Positions 35,938 through 52,029 of a stretch of DNA of 64,000 nt are shown one piece after another. The translations under genes and the position numbers were made by a program. The notes under the pieces were generated by a model that saw nothing but the letters and a program-made list of their open reading frames with translations, had not been told where the DNA came from and searched no databases. How positions within the stretch are numbered: the stretch's first letter is position 1; every line of letters begins with the position of its first letter. Source of the stretch: Alteromonas sp. KC3 (GTDB lineage: Bacteria > Pseudomonadota > Gammaproteobacteria > Enterobacterales > Alteromonadaceae); NCBI RefSeq assembly GCF_016756315.1, contig NZ_AP024235.1, positions 4,278,001-4,342,000 of the forward strand. The letters are read 5' to 3'.

Positions 35938-36457
35938 ACGCTTTTCCTCTTATTTGGACTCTTTCGAGAATGACACCCTTTAATCAAATTAAAGCCATTT
36001 AATTCGCTTATGCTTATCATTCGTTGTCGAAATTAAAACCAAACCAACCAATCGTTTTGTTTATACTGTAAGGCCGAAAAGCGCATGTAGCGATTACTTT
36101 TCGCGCAATAACGCATCAAAACTACGCGAAAACACCATCAACAACTAGTATCTTTTACTTCATAGTCATAACTAACATTTATAAACATTTGGCATATTGT
36201 TGATTAATACACCCAATACAGATCCATATATCTTGTGAATACACTATTTATTGTACAAAAAACAAACATACGTAAAGGTGTAATCGACGCGTAAAAATGA
36301 TGCGCAAACAGCACTTTTTAAAATTTTGTTAAATTAATTTGGGGGATTTTACAAACCGTGTCGTCTTGAAGAGTTAACAGCGAAATGCTGTGAGAAAAGC
36401 CACATGGGGTGCACACCATTTGGCACATTAAAACTAACTTTTAGGACACACACCATC
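35938..36457. other. Divergent intergenic region, pntAA / receptor
   Basis: A 520-bp gap holding the pntAA promoter (minus) and the receptor-halogenase operon promoter (plus). The plus-strand part contains the candidate ECF promoter at 36341-36366. I see no RNA gene or tRNA. A 36404 ATG in frame with the receptor would add 18 residues before the signal peptide and is not used. Confidence 0.55.
36341..36366 (+). promoter_or_regulatory. Candidate ECF-sigma promoter of the receptor-halogenase operon
   Basis: GGGGG (36341-36345), 16 bases, then CGTCT (36362-36366). The same ten bases at the same spacing occur before the ECF sigma gene at 51974-51999. The layout (G-rich -35, CGTC-type -10, about 16 bp apart) suits ECF sigma promoters. 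Transcription would begin near 36373, giving an 85-base leader to the ATG at 36458. Confidence 0.55.
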
Positions 36458-39364
36458 ATGTATAGGAAAACCAAGCTTGCATGCTCAGTGGCAGCAGTTT
36501 TAGCGTCAGCTATTTCTGCAAATAGTGCATTTGCCCAAGACGCGCAACCCAACAATGACGTAGAAGTGATTGAGGTAAGTGGTATTCGTTCATCGGTTGC
36601 AAAATCAATGGATGTTAAACGCAGTTCTGCTGGCGTAGTTGACGCCATTAGCGCAGAAGATATTGGCGACTTTCCCGATACCAACTTAGCTGAATCACTA
36701 CAGCGTATTACAGGCGTATCCATCGACCGCTCAGGCGGTGAGGGTCAACTTATTACCGTTCGTGGTTTTGGCCCTCAGTTTAATACGGTGCTTGTTAACG
36801 GCCGTCAAATGGCATCTGAAAACGATTCGCGCGCGTTTAGCTTCGACACTATTGCCTCTGAGCTTGTTAGCAGCCTTGACGTACATAAAACGTCTACGGC
36901 TACTATGCAATCAGGTGGTGTGGGTTCAACTATCAACATCAATACGGCACGTCCTTTCGCGCTGAACGGCTTCAAAATGGCTGGCTCTGTGAAAGGCGTT
37001 TACGACGAAAACAGCGAAGAAACTACGCCACAGTTTTCTGGACTCATTAGTAATACATTTAACGATGACACGTTTGGTGTGTTACTGGCGGTTTCACACC
37101 AAGAACGTAAAACACGCCTTAATCAGGCTCAAATGGATGGATGGCTTGAAAACGTTGGTGTGCCAAACCCTGTCACTGAGTCGGGTCAAGCATGGACAGG
37201 CAACGTGTTTTCGCCACGCAACTACGATCACAAAGTAACCTTCGAAGAACGTACGCGTACCAATGCTAATTTGGTATTTCAATATGCCCCTAATGACAAG
37301 CTCGTAGTTACAGCAGATGCACTTTATTCAGATTTCGATGTAGAGTCAGAAGCCACCTCTTACGGGCACTGGTTTACTGCGCCTAATATCCAAGGCGTAG
37401 GGGATGATGGCAGCTTATTTGATGCAAACGGTAACCGCCGCAGCCCAACCGTTGATGCTAACGGCACTATCATAGACTTGTATCAAGAAGTGGGTTTGGC
37501 AACTGATATGCACGCCAAAACGTTTGACCGTTTGACCGACACTTATGCCGTAGGCCTTAACTTCGATTATCAGTATTCTGATAACTTGAACTTGTCATTC
37601 GACTTAAGTCACTCAGAAGCAGAACGTGAAGCAAATAACGGTGGTGGCGATCAGTTATCACTAATCGGGTATGCGAACCGTGTACGCTTTCAAGTTGATG
37701 ACAACATCTTACCTGTGGCTAGCATGTTTGCCTCGCCCAACGCGAATATCTATAGCGGGCAGCAAGAGTTGAATGGCGCTATTGTTACTGGTCCAGACGG
37801 TTTCCCTATTTACAACCCTGCACTAACGCCTGACGGAGTAAGTAATCACCTTGATGAAGCGAATAGTCGTGCCCACGTAATGCTACGTCGCGGATGGGCA
37901 GTAGAAGACGAAGTAAGCCAGCTGCGTTTTGACGGTGAATATGTCACTGACGGAAGCGGCCTGACTGAAATTCGCTTTGGCGCACAGTACAGCACCGAAA
38001 CCAAATCACTAACGCGCTGGGACAACGAAGGCGTTGGTATTCACTGTACGTACTGTGGTTACCCTGATTTACCTGAAATTCCAGCAGGTAGCCAATACGT
38101 TTTTGATGCCGGTAGCGACTTCCTTTCAGATGTTAGTGGTAGCGGCCGTATGCCAACCTCTTGGTTAGCCCACGATGGCGAAGCCAACTTTGCGTTTCTA
38201 GAGTCTTATTACCAAAGCGTTAATGGCGAAGCCATTAGTTTTGATGCGGTGCGTCGTAACAATAGCTTTGAAGTAGAAGAAGATATTATCTCTACTTACT
38301 TAGAGTTCGATTTTGAAGGCGAAGTGGCTGACATGTTCTTAAGTGCAACCGCAGGCGTGCGCTACGAAATGACAGACGTGACCGTTAACGGCACACAAGC
38401 CCCTATTACCGGCCTCACCATTTTGGATCAAACCGAAATGCTAGCCGGGTTTGGTGACGCACAAAGCATAGCCACTGAATCAGACTATGATGTGCTATTA
38501 CCTAACTTCAGTGTACGTCTAGAAATTACTGACGACTTAATTGCGCGCTTTGCCGCGAGCTCAACCATTACTAGACCAACGCTTAATAGCATGTCGCCAG
38601 TAACGGTTATCACAACAACGCGTCAAGGCGGTGATTTAACCTCAACCAGCGGTAACCCAGCACTTGAGCCGTTTAAGTCAGATAACCTCGACTTATCACT
38701 TGAATACTATTACGACGAAGCAAGCTACGCCTCAATTGGTTACTTCAGAAAGCTGGTTTCTAACTTCATCGTGAACAGTCAAGAAGATAAAATCTTTGAA
38801 CTGGCTGATGGTAGCTTGCTGACTGACCCGTCAACGGGCAGCAATGCAGGCGCGCCAGATGCCAGTGACGCCGTAGCGGTATTTACAAACACCTTACCGA
38901 ACAATGGTGAAGACGCCACGGTGGACGGCTTCGAGCTTGCTCTTCAACACACATTCGATAACGGCTTTGGTGTACTTGCCAACGGTACGATTGTTGACAG
39001 TGATGCCGAGCTTGATCCATTCGATATTAACCAAGTATTTGCGCTAACTGGGTTGAGTGATTCTTACAACTTAGTGGCTTTTTATGAAACTGACGACTAC
39101 CAGATTCGTCTTGCCTACAACTGGCGTGACGAATTTGTTCAGTCGTTAACACAAGGGCAGGGTGACGGCCCAACTATTGTTGAGTCTTATCAACAACTTG
39201 ACATTAGCGGTAGCTACAGCGTGACAGACAATGTAGAAATTTTCTTTGAAGGTATTAACCTAACAGAAGAGTTTGTACACAAGCGCGGACGCTTCGCTAA
39301 TCACTTGTTGTTGGTTGAAGACAGCGGCAGACGTTGGGCTTTCGGTGTGCGCGGAAACTTTTAA
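36458..39364 (+). CDS. TonB-dependent receptor, Xanthomonas/Caulobacter type
   Basis: A 968-residue outer-membrane receptor. Start chosen at ATG 36458, which opens a signal peptide (MYRKTKLACSVAAVLASA...AFAQ) with AGGA 11 bases upstream. Plug domain about 30-160 (DTNLAESLQRITGVSIDR, GEGQLITVRGFGPQFNTVLVNG), 22-stranded barrel after it, and a C-terminal Phe (VRGNF). This large TIGR01782-like class commonly imports oligosaccharides. A CxxC pair (HCTYCGY) sits in a barrel loop. It is a clear paralogue of the receptor at 48551-51775 but lacks the STN domain. First gene of a cluster with halogenase-like, SapC and DUF6445 genes. Confidence 0.93.
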   Translation: MYRKTKLACSVAAVLASAISANSAFAQDAQPNNDVEVIEVSGIRSSVAKSMDVKRSSAGVVDAISAEDIGDFPDTNLAESLQRITGVSIDRSGGEGQLITVRGFGPQFNTVLVNGRQMASENDSRAFSFDTIASELVSSLDVHKTSTATMQSGGVGSTININTARPFALNGFKMAGSVKGVYDENSEETTPQFSGLISNTFNDDTFGVLLAVSHQERKTRLNQAQMDGWLENVGVPNPVTESGQAWTGNVFSPRNYDHKVTFEERTRTNANLVFQYAPNDKLVVTADALYSDFDVESEATSYGHWFTAPNIQGVGDDGSLFDANGNRRSPTVDANGTIIDLYQEVGLATDMHAKTFDRLTDTYAVGLNFDYQYSDNLNLSFDLSHSEAEREANNGGGDQLSLIGYANRVRFQVDDNILPVASMFASPNANIYSGQQELNGAIVTGPDGFPIYNPALTPDGVSNHLDEANSRAHVMLRRGWAVEDEVSQLRFDGEYVTDGSGLTEIRFGAQYSTETKSLTRWDNEGVGIHCTYCGYPDLPEIPAGSQYVFDAGSDFLSDVSGSGRMPTSWLAHDGEANFAFLESYYQSVNGEAISFDAVRRNNSFEVEEDIISTYLEFDFEGEVADMFLSATAGVRYEMTDVTVNGTQAPITGLTILDQTEMLAGFGDAQSIATESDYDVLLPNFSVRLEITDDLIARFAASSTITRPTLNSMSPVTVITTTRQGGDLTSTSGNPALEPFKSDNLDLSLEYYYDEASYASIGYFRKLVSNFIVNSQEDKIFELADGSLLTDPSTGSNAGAPDASDAVAVFTNTLPNNGEDATVDGFELALQHTFDNGFGVLANGTIVDSDAELDPFDINQVFALTGLSDSYNLVAFYETDDYQIRLAYNWRDEFVQSLTQGQGDGPTIVESYQQLDISGSYSVTDNVEIFFEGINLTEEFVHKRGRFANHLLLVEDSGRRWAFGVRGNF

Positions 39365-39404
39365 TTTCGCGTATTAAGGGCCAGCGATTGTTGGCCCTAC
39401 ATTC

Positions 39405-39436
39405 GTGGCTACCACTTGGTAGCCACAGTTTTTATT
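39405..39436 (+). terminator. Attenuator-like terminator between receptor and halogenase genes
   Basis: Stem GTGGCTACC (39405-39413) with GGTAGCCAC (39418-39426), loop ACTT, then AGTTTTTATT. It lies inside a co-directional cluster, directly before the halogenase ribosome site (AGGAACTCGAT). A second hairpin, AGGGCCA/TGGCCCT, precedes it. Partial termination here would give much receptor and little of the downstream enzymes. Confidence 0.75.
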
Positions 39437-39448
39437 CAGGAACTCGAT

Positions 39449-41017
39449 ATGACAACAGCAACTCCCATAACGCACATTGTAGTAGTCGGTGGCGGCAGCG
39501 CAGGGTGGCTTACGGCTGGTCGTATTGCGGCACAACATCAGTGTGCTACCCGCAACAATATCAAAGTGACGCTAGTTGAAAGCCCTAACGTACCGATAAT
39601 TGGTGTGGGTGAAGGCACCTGGCCAACCATGCGCTCAACACTTATTGCGCTGGGAATAAGTGAAACCACCTTTATCAAAGAATGCGATGCTACCTTTAAA
39701 CAGGGAGCCAAGTTTGTAAAGTGGACGACCGGTGAGCAAGACGACTTCTACTATCACCCATTGATGCTGCCGCAAGGGTTTTCACAAGGGAATTTGGGTC
39801 CTTACTGGCAAACGGTAGCGCCAGATTTAAATGAGTCATTCTCACAAGCCGTATGCGTTCAAGAAGCCATATGCGAAGCAGGCTTAGCACCTAAAAGCAT
39901 TCGTCACGCAGAGTTCGCGGGCACAGCAAACTATGCCTACCATTTGGATGCAGGCAAGTTCACTACATTTTTAACCAAACATTGCACTGAAAACCTAGGC
40001 GTTAACCATGTTTTAGCCGATGTGAGCCAAGTGCAAAGTGCAGATAATGGCGACATTAAGGCGCTTCACACGCAGCAAGGCGTCGTTATTGAAGGCGATT
40101 TGTTTGTAGACTGCACGGGCTTTAAATCGCTCTTGTTGGGCGAACACTTCAAGGTACCCTTTATCCCCTGCGACGATGTGTTATTTATCGACCGTGCCCT
40201 TGCGGTACATGTACCTTACGAGAACGCGCAAAGCCCAATTGCGTCACACACCATTTCCACTGCACAAGATGCCGGTTGGGTGTGGGATATTGGGTTACAG
40301 TCCCGTCGTGGAGTAGGTCACGTATATTCAAGCCGTCACCAGAATAAAGACGACGCCTATGCTCGACTAGACACCTACGTACGTCAAACCAGTTCACTAG
40401 ATGGTATTAGCAGTTTGAATGTAAAGGACATTACTATTCAAAGTGGTCACAGACAGCGCTTTTGGCAAAACAACTGTGTTGCCGTTGGCTTGGCAGCGGG
40501 CTTTTTAGAGCCCCTTGAAGCCTCAGCGCTGGTATTAGTAGAACTGTCCGCGTCAATGATTGCCGAGCAACTGCCCGCAAACCGCGCGGTTATGGATATT
40601 GTGGCCAAACGCTTCAACGATACCTTTTCGTATCGCTGGGCACGCATTATCGACTTTTTAAAGCTGCACTATATGTTAAGCAAGCGCGATGATAGCGCGT
40701 TTTGGCGAGACAACCGTGATAGCCAGACTATCCCTGACTCACTCAAAGAGCTATTGGCACTGTGGCAATACCACCCGCCAAGCGATAAAGACTTCACCAG
40801 TAACAATGAAGTATTCCCAGCAGCAAGCTATCAGTATGTACTCTACGGCATGGGCTTTACCTCTGAGCTTGGCGCACATCAGCAATGGGTGAATGCCGAC
40901 TTTGCCAGCCAACAGCTAATGCAAAATAAAAAAGCACGCGCCATGGTCGTAGAAAAGCTGCCACAACATCGCGAGCTAATTAATAAAATTCACCAGTTCG
41001 GCTTACAAGCCGTTTAA
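39449..41017 (+). CDS. Flavin-dependent tryptophan halogenase-like protein
   Basis: A 522-residue FAD protein of the Trp_halogenase family (PF04820 type). FAD motif VVGGGSAGWLTAGRIAA at the N terminus, VGVGEGTWPTMRS and DATFKQGAKFVKW, where the FK lysine aligns with the halogenase catalytic Lys79. The WxWxIP motif reads WVWDIG, so Pro is replaced by Gly. Later FLEPLEASALVLVEL keeps the Glu but not the ST. Such divergent halogenase homologues commonly follow TonB receptors in this bacterial group; their substrate is unknown. The ATG at 39449 has AGGA seven bases upstream; an upstream TTG (39416) is rejected as it lies inside the terminator stem. Confidence 0.88.
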   Translation: MTTATPITHIVVVGGGSAGWLTAGRIAAQHQCATRNNIKVTLVESPNVPIIGVGEGTWPTMRSTLIALGISETTFIKECDATFKQGAKFVKWTTGEQDDFYYHPLMLPQGFSQGNLGPYWQTVAPDLNESFSQAVCVQEAICEAGLAPKSIRHAEFAGTANYAYHLDAGKFTTFLTKHCTENLGVNHVLADVSQVQSADNGDIKALHTQQGVVIEGDLFVDCTGFKSLLLGEHFKVPFIPCDDVLFIDRALAVHVPYENAQSPIASHTISTAQDAGWVWDIGLQSRRGVGHVYSSRHQNKDDAYARLDTYVRQTSSLDGISSLNVKDITIQSGHRQRFWQNNCVAVGLAAGFLEPLEASALVLVELSASMIAEQLPANRAVMDIVAKRFNDTFSYRWARIIDFLKLHYMLSKRDDSAFWRDNRDSQTIPDSLKELLALWQYHPPSDKDFTSNNEVFPAASYQYVLYGMGFTSELGAHQQWVNADFASQQLMQNKKARAMVVEKLPQHRELINKIHQFGLQAV

Positions 41018-41044
41018 TCGACTAACCAGAAAAAGGACCCGCGT

Positions 41045-41791
41045 ATGACAAACATGGTTGCTATTAATAATAAAGAGCATGCAGGCCTTAAAGTCACTAG
41101 CGACGCTTTGAACCTTAGCGCTAATCAGCACCTAGTACCTGTCGTAGTGTCTGAGCTAAACAAACTTGTTGTGCACTATCCTGTTGTGATCACCAAATTA
41201 GATGACTCGGGTCAATTTGGCTTATCGGCGTTACTTGGGTTTGAAGAAAACGAGAATTTGTTTTGGCAACAAGGTCAGTGGAATGGGGTTTATATTCCTG
41301 CACAGTTTGAGCGCCTGCCTTTTTATGTAGGCACAGAGCCTTCAAATACAAACGCTCAGGCTAACCGCGTGCTGTGCATTGATATGGACAATTCATCGGT
41401 CAATGAACAAGACGGTAGCCCACTGTTCGATAACATGGGTGAACCAACCTCTTACCTTGTAGAAAAACAGCAAATATTGGCGCAGCTGCTTGATGGCGAA
41501 ACGCAAAATCAGCGCTTTATCGCCGCGCTAGTGCAACACAACCTTATTACGCCATTTACCTTAGACATTACGTTTGAAAACGAAAGTAAAACATCAATTA
41601 CCGGGCTGTACACCATAGACGAAGACAAGCTTGCGGCACTAAGCCCACAAGCCATTGCCGATTTGCATGCGCAAAATTTGTTGCAAAGTATCTATACGCT
41701 GGTAGCTTCAAACGCACAGATTTACGCGCTTATTGATAAAAAGAATAAAGCGAACAAAAACGCAGACGCATGGTTTCAAACTACAAACTAA
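41045..41791 (+). CDS. SapC family protein
   Basis: A 248-residue SapC-domain protein (PF07277 type; unrelated to the peptide ABC permease SapC). Recognisable blocks: LVPVVVSELNKLVVHYPVVITK at about 30-50, FGLSALLGFEENENLFW, WNGVYIPAQFERLPFYVG, DNMGEPTSYLVEKQQILAQLLDGE and ALVQHNLITPFTLDITFEN. No signal peptide or membrane segment, so cytoplasmic. Its biochemical role is unknown; it repeatedly accompanies halogenase-like proteins and TonB receptors. It overlaps the next gene by 22 bases, indicating translational coupling. Confidence 0.88.
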   Translation: MTNMVAINNKEHAGLKVTSDALNLSANQHLVPVVVSELNKLVVHYPVVITKLDDSGQFGLSALLGFEENENLFWQQGQWNGVYIPAQFERLPFYVGTEPSNTNAQANRVLCIDMDNSSVNEQDGSPLFDNMGEPTSYLVEKQQILAQLLDGETQNQRFIAALVQHNLITPFTLDITFENESKTSITGLYTIDEDKLAALSPQAIADLHAQNLLQSIYTLVASNAQIYALIDKKNKANKNADAWFQTTN

Positions 41792-42477
41792 TTAACGTGG
41801 GCGAACACGCCACGCCGGTCATTGTGATTGATGACTTTTTGCCTGATGCGCAAAGCATGGTCGACGTTATCGCGCAAAGTCATCGCTTTGAGAAAAAAAC
41901 AGATGACTTTTATCCCGGTGTAAGAAGTCATGCGCCCGATGCGTATGTCGCCCACCTGCATCGCACTTTGCCTGCGCTGTTCGCTGAATTAAACGGGGCT
42001 TTGGTCGATAGCTCTAAGCCTCAGCTGGCAATGGCGCAGCTTTCTGTTGCCAACCAACATCCAAGCCAGCTATCTCCCATTCAGTGTATTCCTCATATTG
42101 ATACTCAACGCGATAATGAATGGGCATTAGTTCACTATTTGTTCTGCGCGCCTTTGGGGGGCACAGCCTTCTATCGACACAAAGAAACGGGGCTAGAACG
42201 GGTTAATGCCAGCCAATATCATCACTATTTTTCTACGCTAAAACGCCAAGCCACCTCGGTGGGCTTGCCTGCTAAAGCGTACATCAATGGTGATACCGCT
42301 ATGTTCAAACAGATCGCCTGTGTAGAGGCGCAGTTTAACCGTGCGCTACTTTACCCCGCGAACTTGCTGCATAGCGGCTGTTTACCTAACGACATAGACC
42401 AAACTGCTTCACATGGTCGTCATCTCGATATCAAATATGCGAGGCTAACTGCCAATGCCAGCATTCTTTTTGACTAG
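41770..42477 (+). CDS. DUF6445 family protein, possible Fe/2OG oxygenase fold
   Basis: A 235-residue cytoplasmic protein of the DUF6445 group found with SapC and halogenase-like genes. It starts VSNYKLINVGEHATPVIVIDDFLPDA; the HIDTQRDNEWALVHYLFC stretch (H-x-D) near residue 112 and a later His in LLHSGCLP would fit the H-x-D...H iron triad of 2-oxoglutarate-dependent oxygenases, with a strand-rich core between. This enzymatic reading is inference. Start ATG at 41770 lies inside the end of sapC. Last gene of the receptor-halogenase cluster; the next gene is convergent. Confidence 0.75.
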   Translation: MVSNYKLINVGEHATPVIVIDDFLPDAQSMVDVIAQSHRFEKKTDDFYPGVRSHAPDAYVAHLHRTLPALFAELNGALVDSSKPQLAMAQLSVANQHPSQLSPIQCIPHIDTQRDNEWALVHYLFCAPLGGTAFYRHKETGLERVNASQYHHYFSTLKRQATSVGLPAKAYINGDTAMFKQIACVEAQFNRALLYPANLLHSGCLPNDIDQTASHGRHLDIKYARLTANASILFD

Positions 42478-42504
42478 CATACTGTTGCTGTGTAGCTAGA
42501 ATGC

Positions 42505-43986
42505 TTATTGAGAAGCGCCTTTAGCTGACAGCTTAATAAAAGCAATCTCCTCGCCCCCTTTCACTTCTATTGGCTGCGTTAGCCCATCAATAGCGAAGGA
42601 GATTTTTTCATAACTTCTACCACCATGCTCTCTGGCCACTTCCACATGCAAAACGAGCTGTTTGTCGATGACTGCATTGCCGTAATCATCCAGCCCATCC
42701 CATACTATATGAAGCGGCTTGTTTTTCTTCGTTGCACCGGAAAAGCCATCAATTAAGCTTTCGCTATTGCGGCCAGCTTCTTTTCGACCACTCTCTTTTC
42801 TACCCACTCTGCGCCACCATGTACGCAATTCGCTTAGCCAACGCTCACTGGTACCTCGAAGCGCTAAACTTTTAACAAGTCTATTTTTGTCATCGCTTAT
42901 CCACACACTGACGTATGGCCCACGATAATCCACGATATCAAACATGGGTAGCGCGACATCTATGATTATTCCATTACTCGCCGTACCTGTTTTATCACTT
43001 ACGGCCGTGCGAGCAGCAAAGGTATCGCTTGTAAACACCCGTCCATTTGCATCAACTAGCTTTAGGGCAAGCGAGGGCTGCGAATTCACTATATCTAGCG
43101 ACTGCTGCGCCGTTTTCGTTGCGCCAAAATGTAGCAGCAATGCAGCATCAAATGCGTTGCTAGCAAGTGCCGTCACTTCAAAACGCGCGCTTGGCCAGCC
43201 ATCGCTATGGCTTATCACGCCTTTTTCTTGCGATACAACCTGCGTATCTGAATAGGCAGGCCGTTGCCACGGCTTCAAGTGTGCCAACGTTGCGTTAGAT
43301 AAACCCATCGCATGCCCATCAAGCTGACTTTGCCATTTCGCATTGTTTGCAGAGAAATGTGTTTGCAGCGCATCCACACTTACATGAAATTCAGAAACCC
43401 CAGCAGAGCTCAGAAAATCAGCAACGCGCTCTGCCACAAGTGCTGATGCAAAGGTGGTTAAATCCCACTGAATAGGCGCTGAAAACGCGATGGTATTGTT
43501 TTTTTGAAACGCAACATCGGCAATTCTGGCTACGCGTGCAAGGCGTCTTACTTCGCGACGCGAGAGCGACGTACCCGCCTTATCGTTATCTGTGCTTGAA
43601 ACGCCGCTTTTTCCATAGCTGTAGTCACGCCAATAATCATAGAGTGCGCCATTGCGACAGCTAATGTTTCCTTCGGTTTTTTGGAACCATTTTTCGCACC
43701 GTTCAATGGCGTTATAAAGCCATGTTGGCAATGGCGTAGAATCGCCTTGATTTAACGCGTGAAGCGCACCATGGATGTTGTTTCTGTCTAATGAAAGATA
43801 AGTATCTCTTATCAGCACTTCAATGTTAGTTCGCTGAACTTCATTTAGCCTGCTATTGCTATCAAGCGTGATAACAGGAGCAGGCTGGCCGTTGGGCACG
43901 GGAAATGTATATGACTCAGCAAAAACCGAAACACTAGCAGCTAAGGCCGCTAGTGCTGTTATTACCAATAAACTACGCAAGGCCAT
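42505..43986 (-). CDS. DUF2271 protein with degenerate ApbE-like domain
   Basis: A 493-residue exported protein (signal peptide to about 23, SVFAES). Residues about 40-260 resemble an FAD:protein FMN transferase (ApbE): LDRNNIHGALHALNQGD, then WDLTTFASALVAERVADFLSSAGVSEFHVSVDA where ApbE has its LDLGGIAKGYAVDRA block; the glycines that bind flavin are largely lost. Residues about 270-490 form the DUF2271 domain (YVSVWISDDKNRLVKSL...WDGLDDYGNAV). DUF2271 genes are seen beside EF-hand, DUF4198 and TonB receptor genes, suggesting a metal or heme task. Its ATG shares a base with the preceding stop (TAATG). Confidence 0.75.
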   Translation of the reverse strand: MALRSLLVITALAALAASVSVFAESYTFPVPNGQPAPVITLDSNSRLNEVQRTNIEVLIRDTYLSLDRNNIHGALHALNQGDSTPLPTWLYNAIERCEKWFQKTEGNISCRNGALYDYWRDYSYGKSGVSSTDNDKAGTSLSRREVRRLARVARIADVAFQKNNTIAFSAPIQWDLTTFASALVAERVADFLSSAGVSEFHVSVDALQTHFSANNAKWQSQLDGHAMGLSNATLAHLKPWQRPAYSDTQVVSQEKGVISHSDGWPSARFEVTALASNAFDAALLLHFGATKTAQQSLDIVNSQPSLALKLVDANGRVFTSDTFAARTAVSDKTGTASNGIIIDVALPMFDIVDYRGPYVSVWISDDKNRLVKSLALRGTSERWLSELRTWWRRVGRKESGRKEAGRNSESLIDGFSGATKKNKPLHIVWDGLDDYGNAVIDKQLVLHVEVAREHGGRSYEKISFAIDGLTQPIEVKGGEEIAFIKLSAKGASQ

Positions 43987-44903
43987 TATTCGCTAGCTTG
44001 TGCAGTGGTAGTCGTGTTTTGTTCACGCTCTCGCGGCTTAGGTGCAGGGTCAGCAAGCGTTAGAAAGCCATCGCCATTAGTGTCATAACGATTAAATGCT
44101 GCAAAGCCCGATACCATATACTCGGCAAAGGTCATCTTTTTATCTTCGTCAGTATCTAACACACCAAAACGTACGTAGGTTTGCTTAATTTGCCCGTCAT
44201 AAGTTTTCTTAATTTGAGCATCAAGCCTATCTTCAAACTCTAGTACATACTCTTGCTCGGTAAGCGACCCGTCGCTATTTTCGTCGGTGCGCTGAAACTG
44301 TGCTTCGCGAACAGCATTAAACTCGTCTTTAGTCACAACATCATCGCCATTTTGATCATAAAGCGTCACAAAGCCTTCAATATTGTGGCTTGTTGGCATA
44401 CGTAGCATTGGGCGCTGCTCAAGTGTAGGCGCACTATCGGCATCGCTTTGCGAGGCGCGACGTGGGGCTGGTTCAGGGTCACCTTTCGCAACAACGCCAT
44501 CTTTGTCGGCATCCATACGGGCAAAGCTGCGTTCGCCCACGGCTTCAACTTCGTCTAAGGTAATGCGATCATCGTCATTTTTGTCTACCGCATGAAAACG
44601 GATATGCGTTTGCTTCACCGAGGCTTTTCTGTCTTCAGCCAAGCGCGTTTCCATTTTGCCTTCCCACTCGTACACATACTCGCTCTCATCAAGCACGCCA
44701 TCACCATTCTTGTCAGAGGCAGCAAATCGCGCTCGGCGTGCATTAACAAATTCCTCTAAAGGCAAAGACTGATCTTTGTTTAGGTCGTAGGTAAGAATAA
44801 TGCCGCTCGCGCTATGCGGGGCAGCCGTAGCTGTGCCTCCTAAAGCCACTGCACCTGCCGCGATAAGGAATGCGGTTTTCACTGCTGCGGTTACTTGTTT
44901 CAT
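43986..44903 (-). CDS. Exported protein with eight EF-hand motifs
   Basis: A 305-residue exported protein (signal peptide to about residue 28). It carries eight calcium-loop-like EF-hand motifs in two blocks of four, separated by a linker near residue 155: DLNKDQSLPLEE, DKNGDGVLDESE, DKNDDDRITLDE, DADKDGVVAKGD, then DQNGDDVVTKDE, DENSDGSLTEQE, DTDEDKKMTFAE and DTNGDGFLTLAD. Two blocks of similar order imply an internal duplication. It is likely periplasmic and may bind Ca2+ or other metals. Middle gene of the DUF4198 / EF-hand / DUF2271 operon, joined to the DUF2271 gene by TAATG. Confidence 0.85.
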   Translation of the reverse strand: MKQVTAAVKTAFLIAAGAVALGGTATAAPHSASGIILTYDLNKDQSLPLEEFVNARRARFAASDKNGDGVLDESEYVYEWEGKMETRLAEDRKASVKQTHIRFHAVDKNDDDRITLDEVEAVGERSFARMDADKDGVVAKGDPEPAPRRASQSDADSAPTLEQRPMLRMPTSHNIEGFVTLYDQNGDDVVTKDEFNAVREAQFQRTDENSDGSLTEQEYVLEFEDRLDAQIKKTYDGQIKQTYVRFGVLDTDEDKKMTFAEYMVSGFAAFNRYDTNGDGFLTLADPAPKPREREQNTTTTAQASE

Positions 44904-44930
44904 TGTTGTTGTCTCCGGTCTGCGTTGTGA

Positions 44931-45725
44931 TTAAAAGGCTTCGAATGAAAGCGTGGTGGTGTAGCTATACGTCGGCACATCAGCGCCTTTTGGCGCATCG
45001 GTACGCAAGCGAACCTGCATCAAATAAACGCCTTGCTTTTCGGGGGTGAATGACGCTTCTCCGGCATTGTTCGTGGTGACTTTCTCCACATCTGATTCTT
45101 CGGCAAACTGATCTTTACCTTCATAAAATGCCACTTCGTGGTTCGCAACTGGTTCACCGTTGTAAAGCACATTAAAGTCGAAACTCTCGCCGCTAAAAAG
45201 GCTGTTAGGGTGCATAACGGGCACTATCTCAAGCCCTTCGTTGCGCGGTTTAAGGACAGTCTCAGTTGGGCCTTTTTTAGTGACATAGGTACTGGCGAAA
45301 GTAACGGACTGAAAGTGTTCAGTAAGCTCTGCACCTTCTGGCAGCGGCTTGTCGTTACCACGCATTGAGCCTCGCTCGCCATCTTTCATGTAAACACGAA
45401 ACACCGCGCCCATTCGCTTACCGGTAGAAAACTGATATGTACCTTCTTCTTCCAGCGTGTGTTCAAGCACATTGCGCGTAGACAAGTTAACCACCTCATC
45501 CACATTCTGTTTGTTACCACTTGGCGTTATCACTTCAAATGACGCGTTGGAAACGGCCGCTTCTGGCACAAAAAACTGTTCTGCGAACGAAGCGTCTAGC
45601 GTTATTTTGCCGCCGCGAACAGGTTCAAACTGAAGTGGCTTTAAGTAAGCAACGTGGGCCAATGCACTGCTACTGAGACAGCTGGCAAGTAACAAATTAA
45701 GGCTGATAAGCGAGTGTTTTTTCAT
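44931..45725 (-). CDS. DUF4198 periplasmic protein (NikM-like)
   Basis: A 264-residue exported protein with signal peptide (to about 24, ALAHVAYLKP). After cleavage the mature end would begin near His-Val-Ala-Tyr. DUF4198 proteins have Greek-key domains seen in nickel/cobalt uptake helpers (NikM) and metal-linked loci. The C-terminal part (VANHEVAFYEGKDQFAEESDVEKVTTNNAGEASFTPEKQGVYLMQVR) is a carboxypeptidase-regulatory-like beta-sandwich. First gene of the minus-strand operon; its promoter is covered by the Fur box shared with the receptor on the plus strand. Confidence 0.82.
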   Translation of the reverse strand: MKKHSLISLNLLLASCLSSSALAHVAYLKPLQFEPVRGGKITLDASFAEQFFVPEAAVSNASFEVITPSGNKQNVDEVVNLSTRNVLEHTLEEEGTYQFSTGKRMGAVFRVYMKDGERGSMRGNDKPLPEGAELTEHFQSVTFASTYVTKKGPTETVLKPRNEGLEIVPVMHPNSLFSGESFDFNVLYNGEPVANHEVAFYEGKDQFAEESDVEKVTTNNAGEASFTPEKQGVYLMQVRLRTDAPKGADVPTYSYTTTLSFEAF

Positions 45726-45761
45726 GGTGTTTTTTTGTTCTGGTAGTGAAAAAGTGAAAAT

Positions 45762-45796
45762 ATACTATTGCAAATGATAATTGTTATCAATAGTAT
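45762..45796. promoter_or_regulatory. Fur box over two divergent promoters
   Basis: TGATAAT-T-GTTATCA at 45775-45789 is a 7-1-7 Fur-type palindrome with one mismatch. Around it, TTGCAA (45768-45773), 17 bases, TAGTAT (45791-45796) makes a plus-strand sigma-70 promoter for the receptor, and on the minus strand TTGATA (45790-45785), 17 bases, TAGTAT (45767-45762) makes one for the DUF4198 operon. Both -35 to -10 stretches include the Fur palindrome, so iron-loaded Fur should shut both at once. Confidence 0.8.
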
Positions 45797-45899
45797 TTAG
45801 ATCAAATTTTGACACCGGGATGTGTCGAATCTCGTTTTGACAGGCACGAGAAAATAACGCGAAACACTTCACTCACACTCTAGATTATTTGGGAAAGAC

Positions 45900-48227
45900 A
45901 TGACTTTTAGACTCTCTTTAGTTTCTATTGCATTAGGCTGTGCGCTATCACTACCTGCTGTTGCACAACAAACTGAATTGGCGGTGACCAAAGCAGAAAG
46001 CGAAGAAACGCTTACCACCACAGTTGAGGCTGTGCTTGATACAGACGCCCTGTCAAAGCGTTCAATTACAAACATTGAAGACACCGCGCGCTATATTCCT
46101 GGTGTTCAGGTAAACGACACTGGTAACCGGTTTGGTAACGATGGCTTTAACATTCGTGGTCTTGAAGGCGACGCTGTTGCAGTAACCATTGACGGTATTG
46201 GTCAGGGTGAAACCCTTAACCCTGGTTCATTTGCAGCTTACGGTATGTTTGGCTCGAGTCGCGGTGAGGTAGAAGTTGAGCACGTAAAGGCTATCACTAT
46301 TACCAAGGGACCTAGCGCGGTGGCACAAGGCTCAGGCTCATTGGCAGGCTCAGTCACGTATGTGACCAATGATGCCGCCGATTTCTTAGCAAGCACTGGC
46401 GACGACACAACCTTTAAACTTAAAACCGGGTTTGATGCGCGGTCTGACGAATGGCTTGTTCACGGCACTGTAGCCAATAGAACGAATAACCTAGAATCGT
46501 TAGTGCAATACACAATGCGCGATAGCAGCGAGACACAAGCGCATAGTAATGGCGATGCCATTGAGGGGGCAGGTCGCGGACAAGCAGATCCAATGGATTC
46601 ACAATTGGACGCCGTGTTAATTAAACTGGCTTACAATTATTCAGACCACCAGCAATTCGGTTTGGTTTATGAAAACACCCAGCGCGATACCGACGGCATC
46701 CCTCTGTCAAGAGAAAGCAGCACCTATTTTAATTTTACTTCGCAAGACGAAAATAACCGCGAACGACTTGGTGCATTTTATAGTGCTGATAACGTGCAAT
46801 CGGCATTAGCAGACAGTATCGATGTACGACTAAATTACCAAGAATTGTATACCGCTGGTGTAACCAACTTTTTGTTTGCCTCTGGCCCCACCGACCCTAT
46901 TTTGCGCTCTGAAGACCGTAATTTTACCCAAGAACAAGTAAGCCTGAATGTCGATATCGCTAAGTCAATTAATGGTGATATTAATCATGAGATTATTTAC
47001 GGCCTGAGCTATCAGCAAGTTGATGCCAGTGCACAAATGTACGACCGTCGCTATGCAGGCGCTACAGTAAGTGCAGGTATACTTGACGGCTACCCCATTC
47101 GCGACCAAAGCTTTGTACCTGAATCTGAAAAAACGGTATTTACCGCTTACCTTGCTGACACGGTTACGCTTAGCGATGTACTCACTGTAAATGCAGGCCT
47201 TAGATACGATACTACAGAATACACGCCAACTATTGACGATACATTCTCTGATCCAACAGGGCTAAGTATTGAAGATGCTGACTTTAGTGCTGTAGTCGGT
47301 GAACTCGGTGCAACCTACACCTTTGCGCCGGGCCATTCATTAAATGCGCGAATTGCGCAAGGCTATCAAGCCCCTACACTTCAAGACCTTTACTTTGGCA
47401 CTAATTCGGGCGACGAAGCAGTAGATATTGTGACAGGTAACACGTTTATTGACCTTGACCGTATTGCAAATGGTGAGCTAGAAGCACAAGAGTCGATGAG
47501 TTATGAGCTTACCTACGTGGGTAATTTTGAAAATGGTAACGTGAGTGTGTCTGTATTTAGAACCGACTACACCAACATGATTCAAGATGAAACTTTCTCA
47601 AACCCTTATGATGCCGTACTTACCCAGCAGGTGTGCAGTCGCTTTGGTTGTTCCGTTGAAGTAAGCAGCGAAGATACCTTCACGCAACCTCAAAATACCG
47701 GAGAAATTACTGTTGACGGTATTGAAGTATCAGCCTCTTATGACTTCACAGCCAACTGGCGTGGGCAATTTGCTTACACCGCATTGAACGGCGAATACGA
47801 CACAGCGTCGAGCTTTAATGATGCCGGTGATGATTTAGAAACCATTGCACCAGATACCGCCACCATGGCACTTTCGTATGTTTCTGACAACCGTGACTGG
47901 GGCGCTGAGTTGGTTGCCATTACCAGTAAGGGTGTTGATGAAACCTCGCAAACGAGCTTCACCTCACTTAACAATGGCGACGGCCCGGCATACTACCCAA
48001 GTGGTTACACCGTGTTTGATTTGATGGCGTTTTACGATATTACTGATAACTTGCGCTTTACCACTGCGATTTATAACTTAACCGACAAAGAGTATTACCG
48101 CTGGGAAGTCATGAACAACGTGCGTACAGGTACAGGCGGCTTTTTCTCTGGCGTTAGCGATAACGGCTATCAGCGTTTCTCTGAACCAGGTAGAAGCATA
48201 AGCGCCTACGTTACGTATCAGTTTTAA
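45900..48227 (+). CDS. TonB-dependent receptor, heme/hemoglobin-type
   Basis: A 775-residue outer-membrane receptor. Signal peptide to about residue 22 (LPAVAQQ), plug about 40-165 (DTARYIPGVQVNDTGNRFGNDGFNIRGLEGDAVAVTIDG; VKAITITKGPSAVAQGSGSLAGSV), then barrel ending VTYQF with terminal Phe. The layout (GLEG-D, IDGIGQGE) resembles the TonB-dependent hemoglobin/transferrin/lactoferrin receptor family, so iron or heme uptake is likely. A Cys pair (VCSRFGCS) lies in a loop. It is divergent from the DUF4198 operon and Fur-controlled by sequence. Confidence 0.88.
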   Translation: MTFRLSLVSIALGCALSLPAVAQQTELAVTKAESEETLTTTVEAVLDTDALSKRSITNIEDTARYIPGVQVNDTGNRFGNDGFNIRGLEGDAVAVTIDGIGQGETLNPGSFAAYGMFGSSRGEVEVEHVKAITITKGPSAVAQGSGSLAGSVTYVTNDAADFLASTGDDTTFKLKTGFDARSDEWLVHGTVANRTNNLESLVQYTMRDSSETQAHSNGDAIEGAGRGQADPMDSQLDAVLIKLAYNYSDHQQFGLVYENTQRDTDGIPLSRESSTYFNFTSQDENNRERLGAFYSADNVQSALADSIDVRLNYQELYTAGVTNFLFASGPTDPILRSEDRNFTQEQVSLNVDIAKSINGDINHEIIYGLSYQQVDASAQMYDRRYAGATVSAGILDGYPIRDQSFVPESEKTVFTAYLADTVTLSDVLTVNAGLRYDTTEYTPTIDDTFSDPTGLSIEDADFSAVVGELGATYTFAPGHSLNARIAQGYQAPTLQDLYFGTNSGDEAVDIVTGNTFIDLDRIANGELEAQESMSYELTYVGNFENGNVSVSVFRTDYTNMIQDETFSNPYDAVLTQQVCSRFGCSVEVSSEDTFTQPQNTGEITVDGIEVSASYDFTANWRGQFAYTALNGEYDTASSFNDAGDDLETIAPDTATMALSYVSDNRDWGAELVAITSKGVDETSQTSFTSLNNGDGPAYYPSGYTVFDLMAFYDITDNLRFTTAIYNLTDKEYYRWEVMNNVRTGTGGFFSGVSDNGYQRFSEPGRSISAYVTYQF

Positions 48228-48250
48228 TTGATACACGGCGCATTAAAAAT

Positions 48251-48285
48251 GCGAAGCTCGCCTTATTAAGGTAGCTTCGCTTTTT
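48251..48285 (+). terminator. Intrinsic terminator after the heme-type receptor
   Basis: Stem GCGAAGCT (48251-48258) with AGCTTCGC (48273-48280), inner CCTT/AAGG pairing, then TTTTTC. It ends the receptor transcript before the small DUF6435 gene. Confidence 0.75.
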
Positions 48286-48373
48286 CGCGTTTACGCTAAA
48301 AATAGATGGGGATGTGATCAAAAGTCTCTCTTAGTGCGTTAATTGGGTAACATTTTATTAGCGAGTACCTGTA

Positions 48374-48547
48374 ATGTTTGGCCTTTTTAAATCAAACCCT
48401 ACCAAAAAACTGCGCAAGCAATACGATGCTTTGCTTGAAAAAGCGATGCACGCTCAGCGCAACGGCGATATAAAAACCTATTCAATGCTAACTGCCCAAT
48501 CGGAAGAACTTTGGAAAGAAATTGAGCGTTTAGAAAACCCTAAATAG
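48374..48547 (+). CDS. DUF6435 family miniprotein
   Basis: A 57-residue protein, too short for a usual ORF cut-off. It begins MFGLFKSNPTKKL and continues as a charged helical protein (RKQYDALLEKAMHAQRNGD, then a Ser-rich turn and LWKEIERLENPK). This pattern matches the DUF6435 family, widespread and short in Gammaproteobacteria; function unknown. The ATG at 48374 is followed by an uninterrupted frame with sensible codon use; the stop TAG is at 48545-48547, three bases before the convergent receptor's stop. It has its own promoter after the terminator. Confidence 0.85.
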   Translation: MFGLFKSNPTKKLRKQYDALLEKAMHAQRNGDIKTYSMLTAQSEELWKEIERLENPK

Positions 48548-48550
48548 GCA

Positions 48551-51500
48551 TTAGTAAATAAGATTAACACCCAACGCATAACGAGCGCCGGCATCTTGCA
48601 CTAACAGCAGGTGATTACTAAAACGACCGCGCTTATGCACAGTTTCATTAGTGATATTAATGCCTTCAAAAAATACCGATAAATGCGGGCTTAACTGGTA
48701 AGACGCACTCACATCCCACTGTTCATAAGGACTAACAAAGGTGGGTTCAGTGCTTTGAGTTTGGTTTAATGATTGCAAGAAACCGTCGCGGTGGTTCCAC
48801 GCCAATCGCCACTGCAATGCATCTCTCTCGTAGAACAGCACCATATTTTTCGCCCCTGACAAGCCAGTAAGAGCAAAGGTAGACTGCACGTTGGCGGTAT
48901 CTAGCTCGGCGTTACTATCTACAAAACTGGCGTTAGCTTGAATACCCCAACCTGACTCACCAAACAAATGTTGCACGGCTATTTCAATGCCTTCAACGGT
49001 GGCCGAGCGTCCATTGTTAGGCGATATTACTGAAAACTGCGCTAATTCATCTTGATCATCTGGCGCGTTGGTATCGCTTCCGGTACTTGGGTCGGTGACA
49101 CCATTAAACGAAAGCGTATTGCTTTGGCTAACAATAAAATTATCTACGGTTTTTCGAAAATAACTCGCCGACAAATAGCTGTTGTCTTGATAATAGTGCT
49201 CAATAGCCAAGTCGATGTTTTGGGCTTCGAAAGGTTTCAATTGCGCGTTACCAATGCGAGCACGTAAATCGCCGCCTTGGCGGGTAGTGGTATAAGTAAC
49301 GCCTGGCGACATCTGTTCTAGTGTTGGTCGAGTAATACTGTGACTATAGGCAACGCGAAATACCCACTGATCAAGCCAATTCGCTTTAACACTGAAACTA
49401 GGAAGGAAATTACTGTAGTTAGATGCTTCTTCAATGCCGACAGAGGCACCAAATTCTTGCCCCAGCTCGGTTTGATCAAGTATCACTAATGCCGAAAGTT
49501 GCTCATCGACACCAGTCACATTTACATCAGTATATTCAGCGCGAATGCCAGCATGTATATCAACAAACCACGGCGCGAAATCTTTCTCTATAGCGGCTTG
49601 TGCATAGGCAGCATACACAGTTTCTTTTACTGCAAATGAACTGCCCCGCGTTTCTGGCGCTAAACTCACATTGCCTGCTTGTTCCAAAAAGCGAAATAAC
49701 GTATCGCCGTCGTGGCGCAACCACTGATTAGGTATATGCTCGTGTCCACTAATGGTACTTAAGAAATCATCACCCGCGTCGAATACCGATTGAAAATTGT
49801 CGGGAATATCAGGGGAGTCGAAATACCCACAAAAAGTGCAGTGTCTGGCATCCGCTTCATTATCTCGTCGTTCGTTAGCTTTTTCTCGCTGCGTTACCGC
49901 CGCGCCCATATCAAGTTTACTAAACCACTGCTGCTCACCTAGCACACTGATATTGACCTTTGCTTGGCCAATGTCATCATCGATGCTCCACCCTCGTCTC
50001 AACATAACATGTGCGCGACCATTAGCGGCATCAAGATAAGGTCCCACGCCTACGGGCTCTCCGAGCGCATTAACTTGCGCTGGATTGGCGGCTTCAAAAC
50101 CAAAAATTGCGGGTAGCACCGTGTTTCGTGTGTGATCGAACGAAGAGCGATTTAAATATCCAATAAGTGAAAGTGCATTACCTTCGCCATTGTTGTCATT
50201 CACTGATGCAGATGAGTATGAAACATCCGCATCCATAATAATATTGGGCGCAACAATCCAGTTAGCATCTACGCCATAACTATGCAGTGACGAAGAGCGG
50301 TTGAAGGTTCTAGCATGAAAATCGGTGGCATGGCCGCTATTTTGAGAAAACGCTACGGCCGTACCATTAGGGTCTAATGTCACGTCCTCTAAATTGCTTG
50401 AAGTAAACCAATGGCCCATAGAGGTTGCCGATGTTTCTACATCGAACGTTGACCCTAAGTAATCCGCTGACAATTCAAACGTACTGTTTGGGCGATATTG
50501 AACAACCAGCGTACCACCTGTTCGTGTACGCTCGTCAAACCTCACTCGTTGATCATAATTTCTTGGCACGTAAAGCGTGTTTGTGCTTGCTGATAGTTCA
50601 TCAGCTGGAATATTAGTATTTACCAACCACCCGTCAATTTGCGCCTCATCAAGACGTGCTTCTCGTTGGTATTGATTGAACGACGCTAATACGCCAAGCG
50701 TATTGTTTAAGTAGGTATTACTAAACAACGCTGTTGTTGAAGGCGTATAGGCCTTGGAATTGGTGTCGTACTGCATTTTTATACTACCGGCAGCGCGCAT
50801 CCCCTTAAAAGACAACGGCTTGGCAGTTTGTATATCAATGGTAGAGCCTATACCACCCGACTGCATTGCTGCCTGATTTTGTTTGTACACGGTAACGCTA
50901 CTTACAATTTCAGAGGCTAGGGTGTCAAAACTAAACTCGCGGCCCAGCTTGTCACTGGCCATAGGCCTGCCATTAAGTAATACACGATTAAACTCTGGCC
51001 CAAAACCGCGTACCGTGACCAACTGACCTTCACCCTCAGCGCGGTCGATAGAAACGCCCGATACTCGCTGTAGCGCTTCAGCAAGGTTTTGGTCGGGGAA
51101 CTTGCCCATATCAACGGCACCAATCGTGTCCATAATGACACTGGCATTTCGTTTAATACCAACCGATTGCGCAACCTTCGCACGAAGCCCTCTTACTTCG
51201 ATAAACTCAATGCGGTAATTGCCCTTATCATCAGGTACGGTGACTAAGCTTTCATCTTGCGCTGTGAGTGAACTAAATAGTCGCGAAATAACATGCTCAT
51301 CGCGCGACTTATTACGTGTAGATTCAATTTTTATACGACTCTTATCAACAATATTCGCTTGTAAGTGCGTATTTGCCAAAAGCATTGCTACTGCTTCTTG
51401 CGGTGTATAGTTACCACTCACTTCATTTGCAAAAGTATGGCGTACTTCGTTGTAAGGAAAGACAACTGTTAGCCCGGCTTGACTAGCAAACGCAATAAGT

Positions 51501-51775
51501 GCCTCGTCAGCACTTTGGGCAGGAATAGAAAAGGCGATTACCTTGTGAACTGCGGGGTGTTCTGTGGCATTTGTGCTTTTATCGGTACTTTTATCGGCGC
51601 TTTGGTCAGTACTTTGGCGTAAATACTGGGTATCAGACTGCTCGTGGGGTAAAACAGATTGTGCACATACGGGTAAGCACAGCCCACCAACTACCAAACT
51701 TACCGCTAGCGACACAGTGCGCGGCGTAAATGGCAGCAAAGCTAGCGTTGAGCGGTGGCGTATTCCCAAAGGCAT
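48551..51775 (-). CDS. TonB-dependent receptor with STN signalling domain
   Basis: A 1074-residue outer-membrane signal transducer. After a signal peptide (to about 39, PVCAQ) and a Ser/Thr/Asp-rich repeat linker (QSTDQSADKSTDKSTN) come an STN domain (about 72-150, FSIPAQSADEALIAFASQAGLTVVF ... GNYTPQEAVAMLLANT), plug (about 190-310) and barrel to the end. The barrel is paralogous to the receptor at 36458-39364: shared blocks include GEGQLVTVRGFGPEFNRVLLNG, HCTFCGY and ETVHKRGRFSNHLLLVQD. The STN domain should pass ligand occupancy to the FecR-like protein encoded divergently. It ends LIY rather than Phe. Confidence 0.92.
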   Translation of the reverse strand: MPLGIRHRSTLALLPFTPRTVSLAVSLVVGGLCLPVCAQSVLPHEQSDTQYLRQSTDQSADKSTDKSTNATEHPAVHKVIAFSIPAQSADEALIAFASQAGLTVVFPYNEVRHTFANEVSGNYTPQEAVAMLLANTHLQANIVDKSRIKIESTRNKSRDEHVISRLFSSLTAQDESLVTVPDDKGNYRIEFIEVRGLRAKVAQSVGIKRNASVIMDTIGAVDMGKFPDQNLAEALQRVSGVSIDRAEGEGQLVTVRGFGPEFNRVLLNGRPMASDKLGREFSFDTLASEIVSSVTVYKQNQAAMQSGGIGSTIDIQTAKPLSFKGMRAAGSIKMQYDTNSKAYTPSTTALFSNTYLNNTLGVLASFNQYQREARLDEAQIDGWLVNTNIPADELSASTNTLYVPRNYDQRVRFDERTRTGGTLVVQYRPNSTFELSADYLGSTFDVETSATSMGHWFTSSNLEDVTLDPNGTAVAFSQNSGHATDFHARTFNRSSSLHSYGVDANWIVAPNIIMDADVSYSSASVNDNNGEGNALSLIGYLNRSSFDHTRNTVLPAIFGFEAANPAQVNALGEPVGVGPYLDAANGRAHVMLRRGWSIDDDIGQAKVNISVLGEQQWFSKLDMGAAVTQREKANERRDNEADARHCTFCGYFDSPDIPDNFQSVFDAGDDFLSTISGHEHIPNQWLRHDGDTLFRFLEQAGNVSLAPETRGSSFAVKETVYAAYAQAAIEKDFAPWFVDIHAGIRAEYTDVNVTGVDEQLSALVILDQTELGQEFGASVGIEEASNYSNFLPSFSVKANWLDQWVFRVAYSHSITRPTLEQMSPGVTYTTTRQGGDLRARIGNAQLKPFEAQNIDLAIEHYYQDNSYLSASYFRKTVDNFIVSQSNTLSFNGVTDPSTGSDTNAPDDQDELAQFSVISPNNGRSATVEGIEIAVQHLFGESGWGIQANASFVDSNAELDTANVQSTFALTGLSGAKNMVLFYERDALQWRLAWNHRDGFLQSLNQTQSTEPTFVSPYEQWDVSASYQLSPHLSVFFEGINITNETVHKRGRFSNHLLLVQDAGARYALGVNLIY

Positions 51776-52029
51776 TATCTTATTATTTTCATTAGTTTTT
51801 TTATTGCAGTTCTCGAGTAGTAACTAAAGCCTGTTTATCTTTGTTCATTTTTTTGAATGCGAAACTACCAAATTCAACTGCTTTTTTGTTTTAAACTAGC
51901 GGCGCATTATATACAACCTATTAACAAATTTAATTTCTCATTGATGTTTTTCATTGCTAATTGAAAAAACATTGGGGGAAAATGACCGCGCACTCGTCTG
52001 TATAAGTAACAACGATAAAAAATAACAAT
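51776..52029. other. Divergent region between signalling receptor and ECF sigma gene
   Basis: A 254-bp gap. The plus-strand end holds the candidate ECF promoter at 51974-51999 for the sigma gene. The part near the receptor is AT-rich with no GGGGG-N16-CGTCT pattern on the minus strand and no convincing Fur box, so the receptor probably uses a different promoter. Confidence 0.5.
51974..51999 (+). promoter_or_regulatory. Candidate ECF-sigma promoter of the fecI-like gene
   Basis: GGGGG (51974-51978), 16 bases, CGTCT (51995-51999), identical in bases and spacing to 36341-36366 before the receptor-halogenase operon. Transcription would begin near 52006, 24 bases before the ATG at 52030, and would make the sigma factor autoregulated. 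Confidence 0.55.

Follow-up and report, generated by a model that had tools for sequence, protein, structure and literature searches.

Known systems and the Alteromonas locus

The Fec system of Escherichia coli and the Fox, Pup and Iut systems of Pseudomonas are built from a FecI-type extracytoplasmic function (ECF) sigma factor, an adjacent FecR protein and a receptor bearing an STN signalling domain, with a receptor promoter that depends on the sigma factor. Glycan-uptake loci of Bacteroides likewise combine an ECF sigma factor and a FecR-like anti-sigma factor with a glycan-sensing TonB-dependent receptor. Here we examine a locus of this general kind in Alteromonas sp. KC3, lying in a stretch of 64,000 nucleotides (contig NZ_AP024235.1, positions 4,278,001 to 4,342,000; hereafter the window, numbered from its first letter) of a genome of 4.56 Mb in a single contig. 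Two closely similar sites stand there before a sigma-fecR operon and before a distant operon encoding a second receptor, a flavin-dependent halogenase (FDH)-like protein, a SapC protein and a DUF6445 protein. We hold with good confidence, on the strength of the sequence comparisons below, that the FecI-type sigma factor encoded at 52030-52629 recognises both sites as its promoters, and that an STN receptor, FecR and this sigma factor form a circuit that drives both operons. The features are as follows.

36341..36366, plus strand: predicted ECF promoter of the receptor-halogenase operon; -35 GGGGGATTTT, -10 TCGTCT; conserved in the genus and beyond
36458..39364, plus strand: TonB-dependent receptor (TIGR01782) without STN, first gene of the target operon; placed inside STN-bearing receptors in the tree
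39416..41017, plus strand: FDH-like protein (PF04820, E 2.3e-124)
41045..41791, plus strand: SapC family protein (PF07277); model pLDDT 93.7
41770..42477, plus strand: DUF6445 protein (PF20043), predicted Fe(II)/2-oxoglutarate (2OG) dioxygenase; model pLDDT 91.7
48551..51775, minus strand: TonB-dependent receptor whose N-terminus bears an STN signalling domain; probably the sensor; no ECF site upstream
51974..51999, plus strand: predicted ECF promoter of the sigma-FecR operon; -35 GGGGGAAAAT, -10 TCGTCT; conserved
52030..52629, plus strand: FecI-type ECF sigma factor; PF04542 and PF08281 above cut-off
52622..53716, plus strand: FecR-type sigma regulator; PF04773 above cut-off; 8-base overlap with the sigma gene

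To judge from these genes, the locus has in common with FecI/FecR/FecA systems the ECF sigma factor, the adjacent FecR, an STN receptor at the locus and a site before a receptor gene; it does not share the STN receptor as a target of the sigma factor, nor Fur control of the sigma and receptor genes. Regions 2 and 4 of the FecI kind are present in the sigma factor, which the NCBIfam FecI models match below their cut-offs. The Bacteroides systems differ in belonging to another phylum and in having SusC/D-type receptors, another promoter and no halogenase. The Alteromonas circuit would be of a known kind overall, and new in its target, its autoregulation and its division between sensing and uptake.

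In the account given in PMC9249621, fecIR of E. coli is controlled by sigma-70 and Fur and is not autoregulated, and the same is said of hasI as regards autoregulation. The Alteromonas sigma gene, in contrast, has a site of its own, as it does in most of the loci examined, and looks autoregulated. Its sensor receptor has no such site, no Fur box was found at the sigma, receptor or STN-receptor starts, and the receptor that appears to be controlled has no STN and stands first in an operon for oxidative enzymes. In the PrhA/PrhR/PrhI system of Ralstonia solanacearum, as PMC1790865 presents it, a receptor of the transducer subclass signals through FecR and FecI homologues to control non-uptake genes, PrhA being described as signalling without apparent transport; in Alteromonas the target is not a secretion system but another receptor, homologous to the first, and enzymes. 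FecIR homologues beside an iron-responsive receptor are reported in Alteromonas macleodii (PMC7190382), a system that, by its description there, differs from the circuit in the window. Two further loci of the same genome (L167 and L168) likewise line up a homologous receptor, a Trp_halogenase protein and SapC. A LacI-type gene adjoins SapC in one of them; the other contains a melibiase and an SSF porter and, at a greater distance, a DeoR-type gene. Both lack the ECF site, and the window's module adds to theirs the sigma factor, FecR and DUF6445.

Two matching sites in the window and the genome

The original prediction held that GGGGG-N16-CGTCT (the raw pattern) stands identically at two places, and scanning the window bore this out: the pattern occurs on the plus strand at 36341-36366 and 51974-51999 and nowhere else. 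The distances that had been given to the start codons also agree, the sites lying 92-117 bases upstream of the receptor ATG at 36458 (the open reading frame (ORF) listing starts at an ATG at 36404, but the conserved protein begins at 36458) and 31-56 bases upstream of the sigma ATG at 52030. Two matches were found in none of 100 shuffles of the window (mean 0.02). Controls throughout were the backwards version of the pattern, the antisense strand and sequence shuffles.

Over the whole chromosome, however, the raw pattern gives 4 matches against 3 for its backwards control, and at least one match is present in 48 of 59 genomes of the genus, so that the raw pattern alone proves little. The refined form, GGGGGAWWWT-N10-TCGTCT, was taken from both window sites and their orthologues, and it matches the genome perfectly at 2 places, with one mismatch at none and with two mismatches at 6. 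Thus the concern that the pattern might be frequent at random places was justified for the raw pattern, but not for the refined form. When up to 3 mismatches are allowed, the refined form has 111 matches in the genome, fewer than the 155 of its control, and therefore no wider regulon is visible.

Conservation within the genus

We searched the 59 genus genomes (G numbers) with the sigma protein, and 11 of them hold a close orthologue (E <= 4e-98). The sigma proteins of the window and of Alteromonas sp. KUL42 (L169) share 99% identity. In all 11, the refined site precedes both the sigma gene and the receptor-halogenase operon; the refined sites in the whole sample number 24, of which 23 are in these 11 genomes and 1 is in G007, against 2 for the backwards control. 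Lack of conservation in relatives had been named as grounds for giving up the prediction, and this is clearly not what is found, with both sites present in every genome that has the orthologue and a single site among the 48 others together. In a 13-row alignment, the twelve core bases are 0.949 identical before the sigma gene (flanks 0.685) and 0.974 identical before the receptor (flanks 0.672), the core values being lowered by two rows that gaps have shifted.

That two short GC-rich patches match by chance, which might be suspected because the raw pattern and its backwards control are about equally frequent in the genome, has next to no probability in our estimation, since both sites persist in other families and in 10 more genomes of the genus while the controls stay near zero. 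The motif might instead have been conserved at the two genes as the binding site of another regulator, or as a promoter for some other sigma factor, RpoE for example. Recognition by the window sigma factor is deduced from co-occurrence, and G007 has one site in a genome without a close orthologue, which gives this reading some room. Yet the gap is nearly fixed, the orientation is fixed, the distance fits a promoter and, within the genus, the motif occurs together with this sigma gene. RpoE promoters have a different -10, which speaks against that variant, and we rate the whole alternative as very improbable. The genome's other FecI-type match (L166) is 28% identical to the window sigma factor, and no strict (defined below) or relaxed site was found at that locus or at the two other FDH loci, L167 and L168. 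Because these loci lack the site, and because of the co-occurrence in the genus, we infer that the motif is tied to the window sigma factor.

Some genomes depart from the common pattern. G040 has GGCGGA forms of both sites. In G015 and G020 a site precedes SapC-DUF6445 and no halogenase was found nearby. At two genus loci (L077:9278 and L078:7754) a site stands before SapC-DUF6445 with neither the halogenase nor a second receptor found in the fetched stretch, so that the SapC-DUF6445 pair may be able to function without the halogenase. In four genomes (L069:11558, L071:1979, L072:2062 and L080:1727) another GGGG-type site, with GCGTCA at its end, stands about 120 bases upstream of the one before sigma and is perhaps a second start.

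Conservation beyond the genus

Among 196 genomes of the family, the sigma protein has a match at E <= 1e-40 in 35, spread over 19 of 52 genera, and 31 further family loci were fetched for a site scan, in which a two-box motif score was compared with the reverse strand and shuffles. Between genera the first base of the motif is mostly G or A and the third, which can be C, A or T in relatives, is free, while A at position 6, W at positions 7-9 and T before CGTC are retained. The pattern as originally noted is thus present, but the conserved motif is longer and partly different. We derived from these loci a wider, strict form, RGnGGAWWW-N11-TCGT[C/T]. On the sense strand it precedes the sigma gene in 26 of 31 loci, the receptor in 16 of 20, and SapC and FDH in 0/19 and 0/18, respectively; its backwards control gave 0 at each of the four. 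All family loci together hold 48 strict matches against 3 backwards ones. Eleven antisense matches before sigma precede divergently placed genes.

A set of 80 named gammaproteobacterial loci, some from the same genomes as the family loci, gave 112 strict matches against 3 backwards ones in all. Upstream sequence was sufficient in 78 of them, and a site within 220 bases of the sigma start was present in 56, with none antisense and none backwards. By group, the sigma site is found in 32 of 37 loci from Alteromonadales-type families and in 24 of 41 from other or unassigned families, the latter being the more independent part of the count. The strict form also precedes 25 of the 28 receptors in this set that are at least 50% identical to that of the window. 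Loci of Colwellia, Pseudoalteromonas, Shewanella, Cellvibrio, Microbulbifer, SAR92 and others, though not every locus, have a site before sigma and before a receptor. Five loci (L193, L195, L202, L208 and L214) show the order sigma-FecR-[STN receptor]-FDH-SapC-DUF6445, in which sigma and the receptor each have a site upstream. In two Rheinheimera loci (L157 and L158) a variant with an 11-base spacer scores well. A strict site also lies 34 bases before what reads as a sulfatase-like gene in the marine isolate HTCC2207 (L229:19569).

A likely sensing receptor and a likely uptake receptor

The absence of the pattern before the STN receptor, which had been remarked on from the start, also holds in relatives. 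No site lies in the 700 bases upstream of STN receptors that resemble orthologues (identity of at least 49%) in 16 genus, 7 family or 17 named loci, whereas a site does precede more distant STN receptors, in 4 of 5 cases from the family and in 18 of 29 from the named loci (the sets overlap). At L110:9755 and L112:9703 the gene behind the site codes for about 300 residues, is located between sigma and the STN receptor and runs towards the latter; in L110, which was scanned, this gene lies 64 bases before the STN receptor and has no Pfam match. The gene may share a transcript with the STN receptor in L110 and L112, which would make these loci possible exceptions.

The halogenase-operon receptor of most relatives has an STN domain of its own. 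Receptors of this operon with about 1075-1120 residues are found in Colwellia, Pseudoalteromonas, Rheinheimera, Shewanella hanedai, Cellvibrio and Microbulbifer loci, and their N-terminal part aligns with that of the STN receptor. The Alteromonas counterpart, at about 967 residues, lacks this part, and the divergent receptor beside sigma has it. Nine STN-type N-termini compared with Pfam match STN at E 8e-8 to 3e-3, one of them above the curated cut-off, and the same scan gave no STN match in the short Alteromonas-type receptor. The N-terminal part of the window's receptor 48551-51775 also matches a FecA model, below cut-off.

We built a tree of 48 receptors, leaving out the N-terminal part. 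Eight short receptors nest inside the fused ones (24 rows, support 100/99), and 19 separate STN receptors form a single clade of their own (100/100). We conclude from this placement that the signalling domain was lost from the uptake receptor, with a paralogue carrying STN; the eight short receptors form one clade with weaker support (63/94), so that either one or two losses are possible. The split would provide a natural test of which part of such a receptor serves sensing and which serves transport.

Carbohydrate or iron as the ligand

The same circuit could respond to an iron-related ligand, such as a siderophore or another ferric chelate, as in Fec, Fox and Pup. Its sigma factor, FecR and STN receptor are of the FecI/FecR/FecA kind, which in PMC9249621 is known mostly for iron, and a receptor cluster with a Fur box sits between the two window sites. 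At the sigma, receptor and STN-receptor starts, however, no Fur box was found, the best match being 12/19, no better than shuffles; the neighbouring receptor at 45900 served as a positive control, with a 15/19 match at 45770-45788 (0 of 200 shuffles). The block to which it belongs, 42505-48227, holds ApbE/DUF2271, EF-hand and DUF4198 genes and the receptor with the Fur box. Of the 11 genus genomes that have both sites, 4 contain this block and 7 do not, and for this reason it looks like a separate, probably iron-related insertion.

The neighbours of the circuit in relatives point in another direction. In a survey of neighbouring ORFs in 92 loci, a few genomes being included twice, the commonest unlabelled neighbour was a sugar porter (27 loci; the two members scanned are both PF00083). 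Among the 80 named loci, a PF00083-type sugar porter follows FecR directly in 22, an SSF-type porter occurs in 4 and a glucokinase in 3 (one member of each of the last two was scanned). In G054 the porter stands beside the receptor and has a perfect site to itself, 344 bases upstream of the first ATG of the porter. A GH5-type gene follows DUF6445 in L193, L202 and L214, two of which are Cellvibrio, and the one scanned, in L193, has cellulose-binding modules. The two other FDH-SapC-receptor loci of the KC3 genome also adjoin carbohydrate genes, one a melibiase and SSF porter (its other flank has an FGGY kinase, DeoR and a DAO gene and could be a glycerol group), the second a LacI gene, an MFS porter and an enolase-superfamily gene.

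From the lack of a Fur box and the carbohydrate genes beside relatives, we take a carbohydrate to be the probable ligand and an iron-related one to be unlikely. Several distant loci have sulfatases in place of the sugar porter, and in a few, genes of a sulfatase cluster adjoin sigma; as the window itself lacks the sugar porter, the ligands probably differ between lineages. Were the ligand a sugar, a type of signalling best known from iron uptake would also serve carbohydrate uptake in marine Gammaproteobacteria.

The proposed circuit

From sequence we have the sites and their conservation, the fact that they occur together with sigma, the linkage of the genes and the tree of receptors; the steps of ligand binding, signal transfer and transcription are modelled on known systems. 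An external ligand, most likely a carbohydrate given the neighbours in relatives, would bind the STN receptor, and the STN domain would then act on the FecR protein to release the sigma factor, as in known cell-surface signalling systems. The signalling domain of such receptors is described as shielding a FecR-type protein from proteolysis until the signal arrives (PMC11637429), and by analogy the same mechanism is likely in Alteromonas. The sigma factor would transcribe its own sigma-fecR operon from the site at 51974, and the second receptor/halogenase-like/SapC/DUF6445 operon from that at 36341. The products might oxidatively modify the compound that is imported, or the receptor, although this step is a guess. 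A single surface-signalling circuit of this outline had been proposed from the start, and both the conservation of the sites and their co-occurrence with sigma lend it support.

Several observations weigh against this reading. The strict site before sigma is missing in 22 of the 78 named loci, including 3 of 3 Chromatiaceae (Rheinheimera) and 6 of 9 Woeseiaceae loci, and the family count of the strict form is not independent, the form having been derived there and the named loci overlapping. G007 carries its refined site without a close sigma orthologue; the more distant G003 and G045 have both sites with small changes, including one extra spacer base in the receptor site; and the sigma site is poor in G015 and G020. 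The STN match of the window's receptor (E 1.2e-4) is below the Pfam cut-off. No sugar porter is found at the window locus, the genome's best match being 33% identical. Finally, FDH is found in just 32 of the 80 named loci, some of which are on short contigs, so that the halogenase is not an obligatory target.

Another way to view the locus is to take circuit, ligand and receptor history together. The circuit would then be of FecI type, autoregulated and responsive to a carbohydrate, with one receptor confined to sensing and its STN-stripped sister importing, in company with a flavoenzyme resembling halogenases, a 2OG dioxygenase and a protein whose fold is unmatched; an ancestral receptor of the halogenase operon would have done both, and the relatives would represent the states before and after. 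To this combined picture we give an even chance.

Predicted enzymes of the target operon

The closest solved structure to the halogenase-like protein by sequence is 2pyx (E 9.7e-173). K95 of the halogenase-like protein, which would correspond to the catalytic lysine of PrnA, and the GGGxAGW FAD motif are invariant in 23 aligned rows, and the protein appears, from its Trp_halogenase profile, FAD motif and invariant lysine, to belong to the flavin-dependent tryptophan halogenases. FDH homologues of this kind (E <= 1e-100) are present in 58 of the 59 genus genomes. The SapC model had no match in the PDB at E <= 0.001. The DUF6445 model matches 2OG oxygenases and has their double-stranded beta-helix fold, with an HxD...H triad (H109, D111 and H201) that is invariant in 27 of 27 rows, as is R225; the protein is predicted from this model to be a 2OG-Fe(II) dioxygenase. 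The exactly placed pair of promoters offers a way in to these enzymes, in that an inducer would name the likely substrate of the halogenase-like proteins.

Halogenase transcripts of Colwellia, which may or may not stem from such an operon, are reported to rise with dispersant (PMC11337851). In the window, FecR is followed at 53810-54532 by a gene for a 241-residue protein that has no Pfam match and occupies the same place in several relatives.

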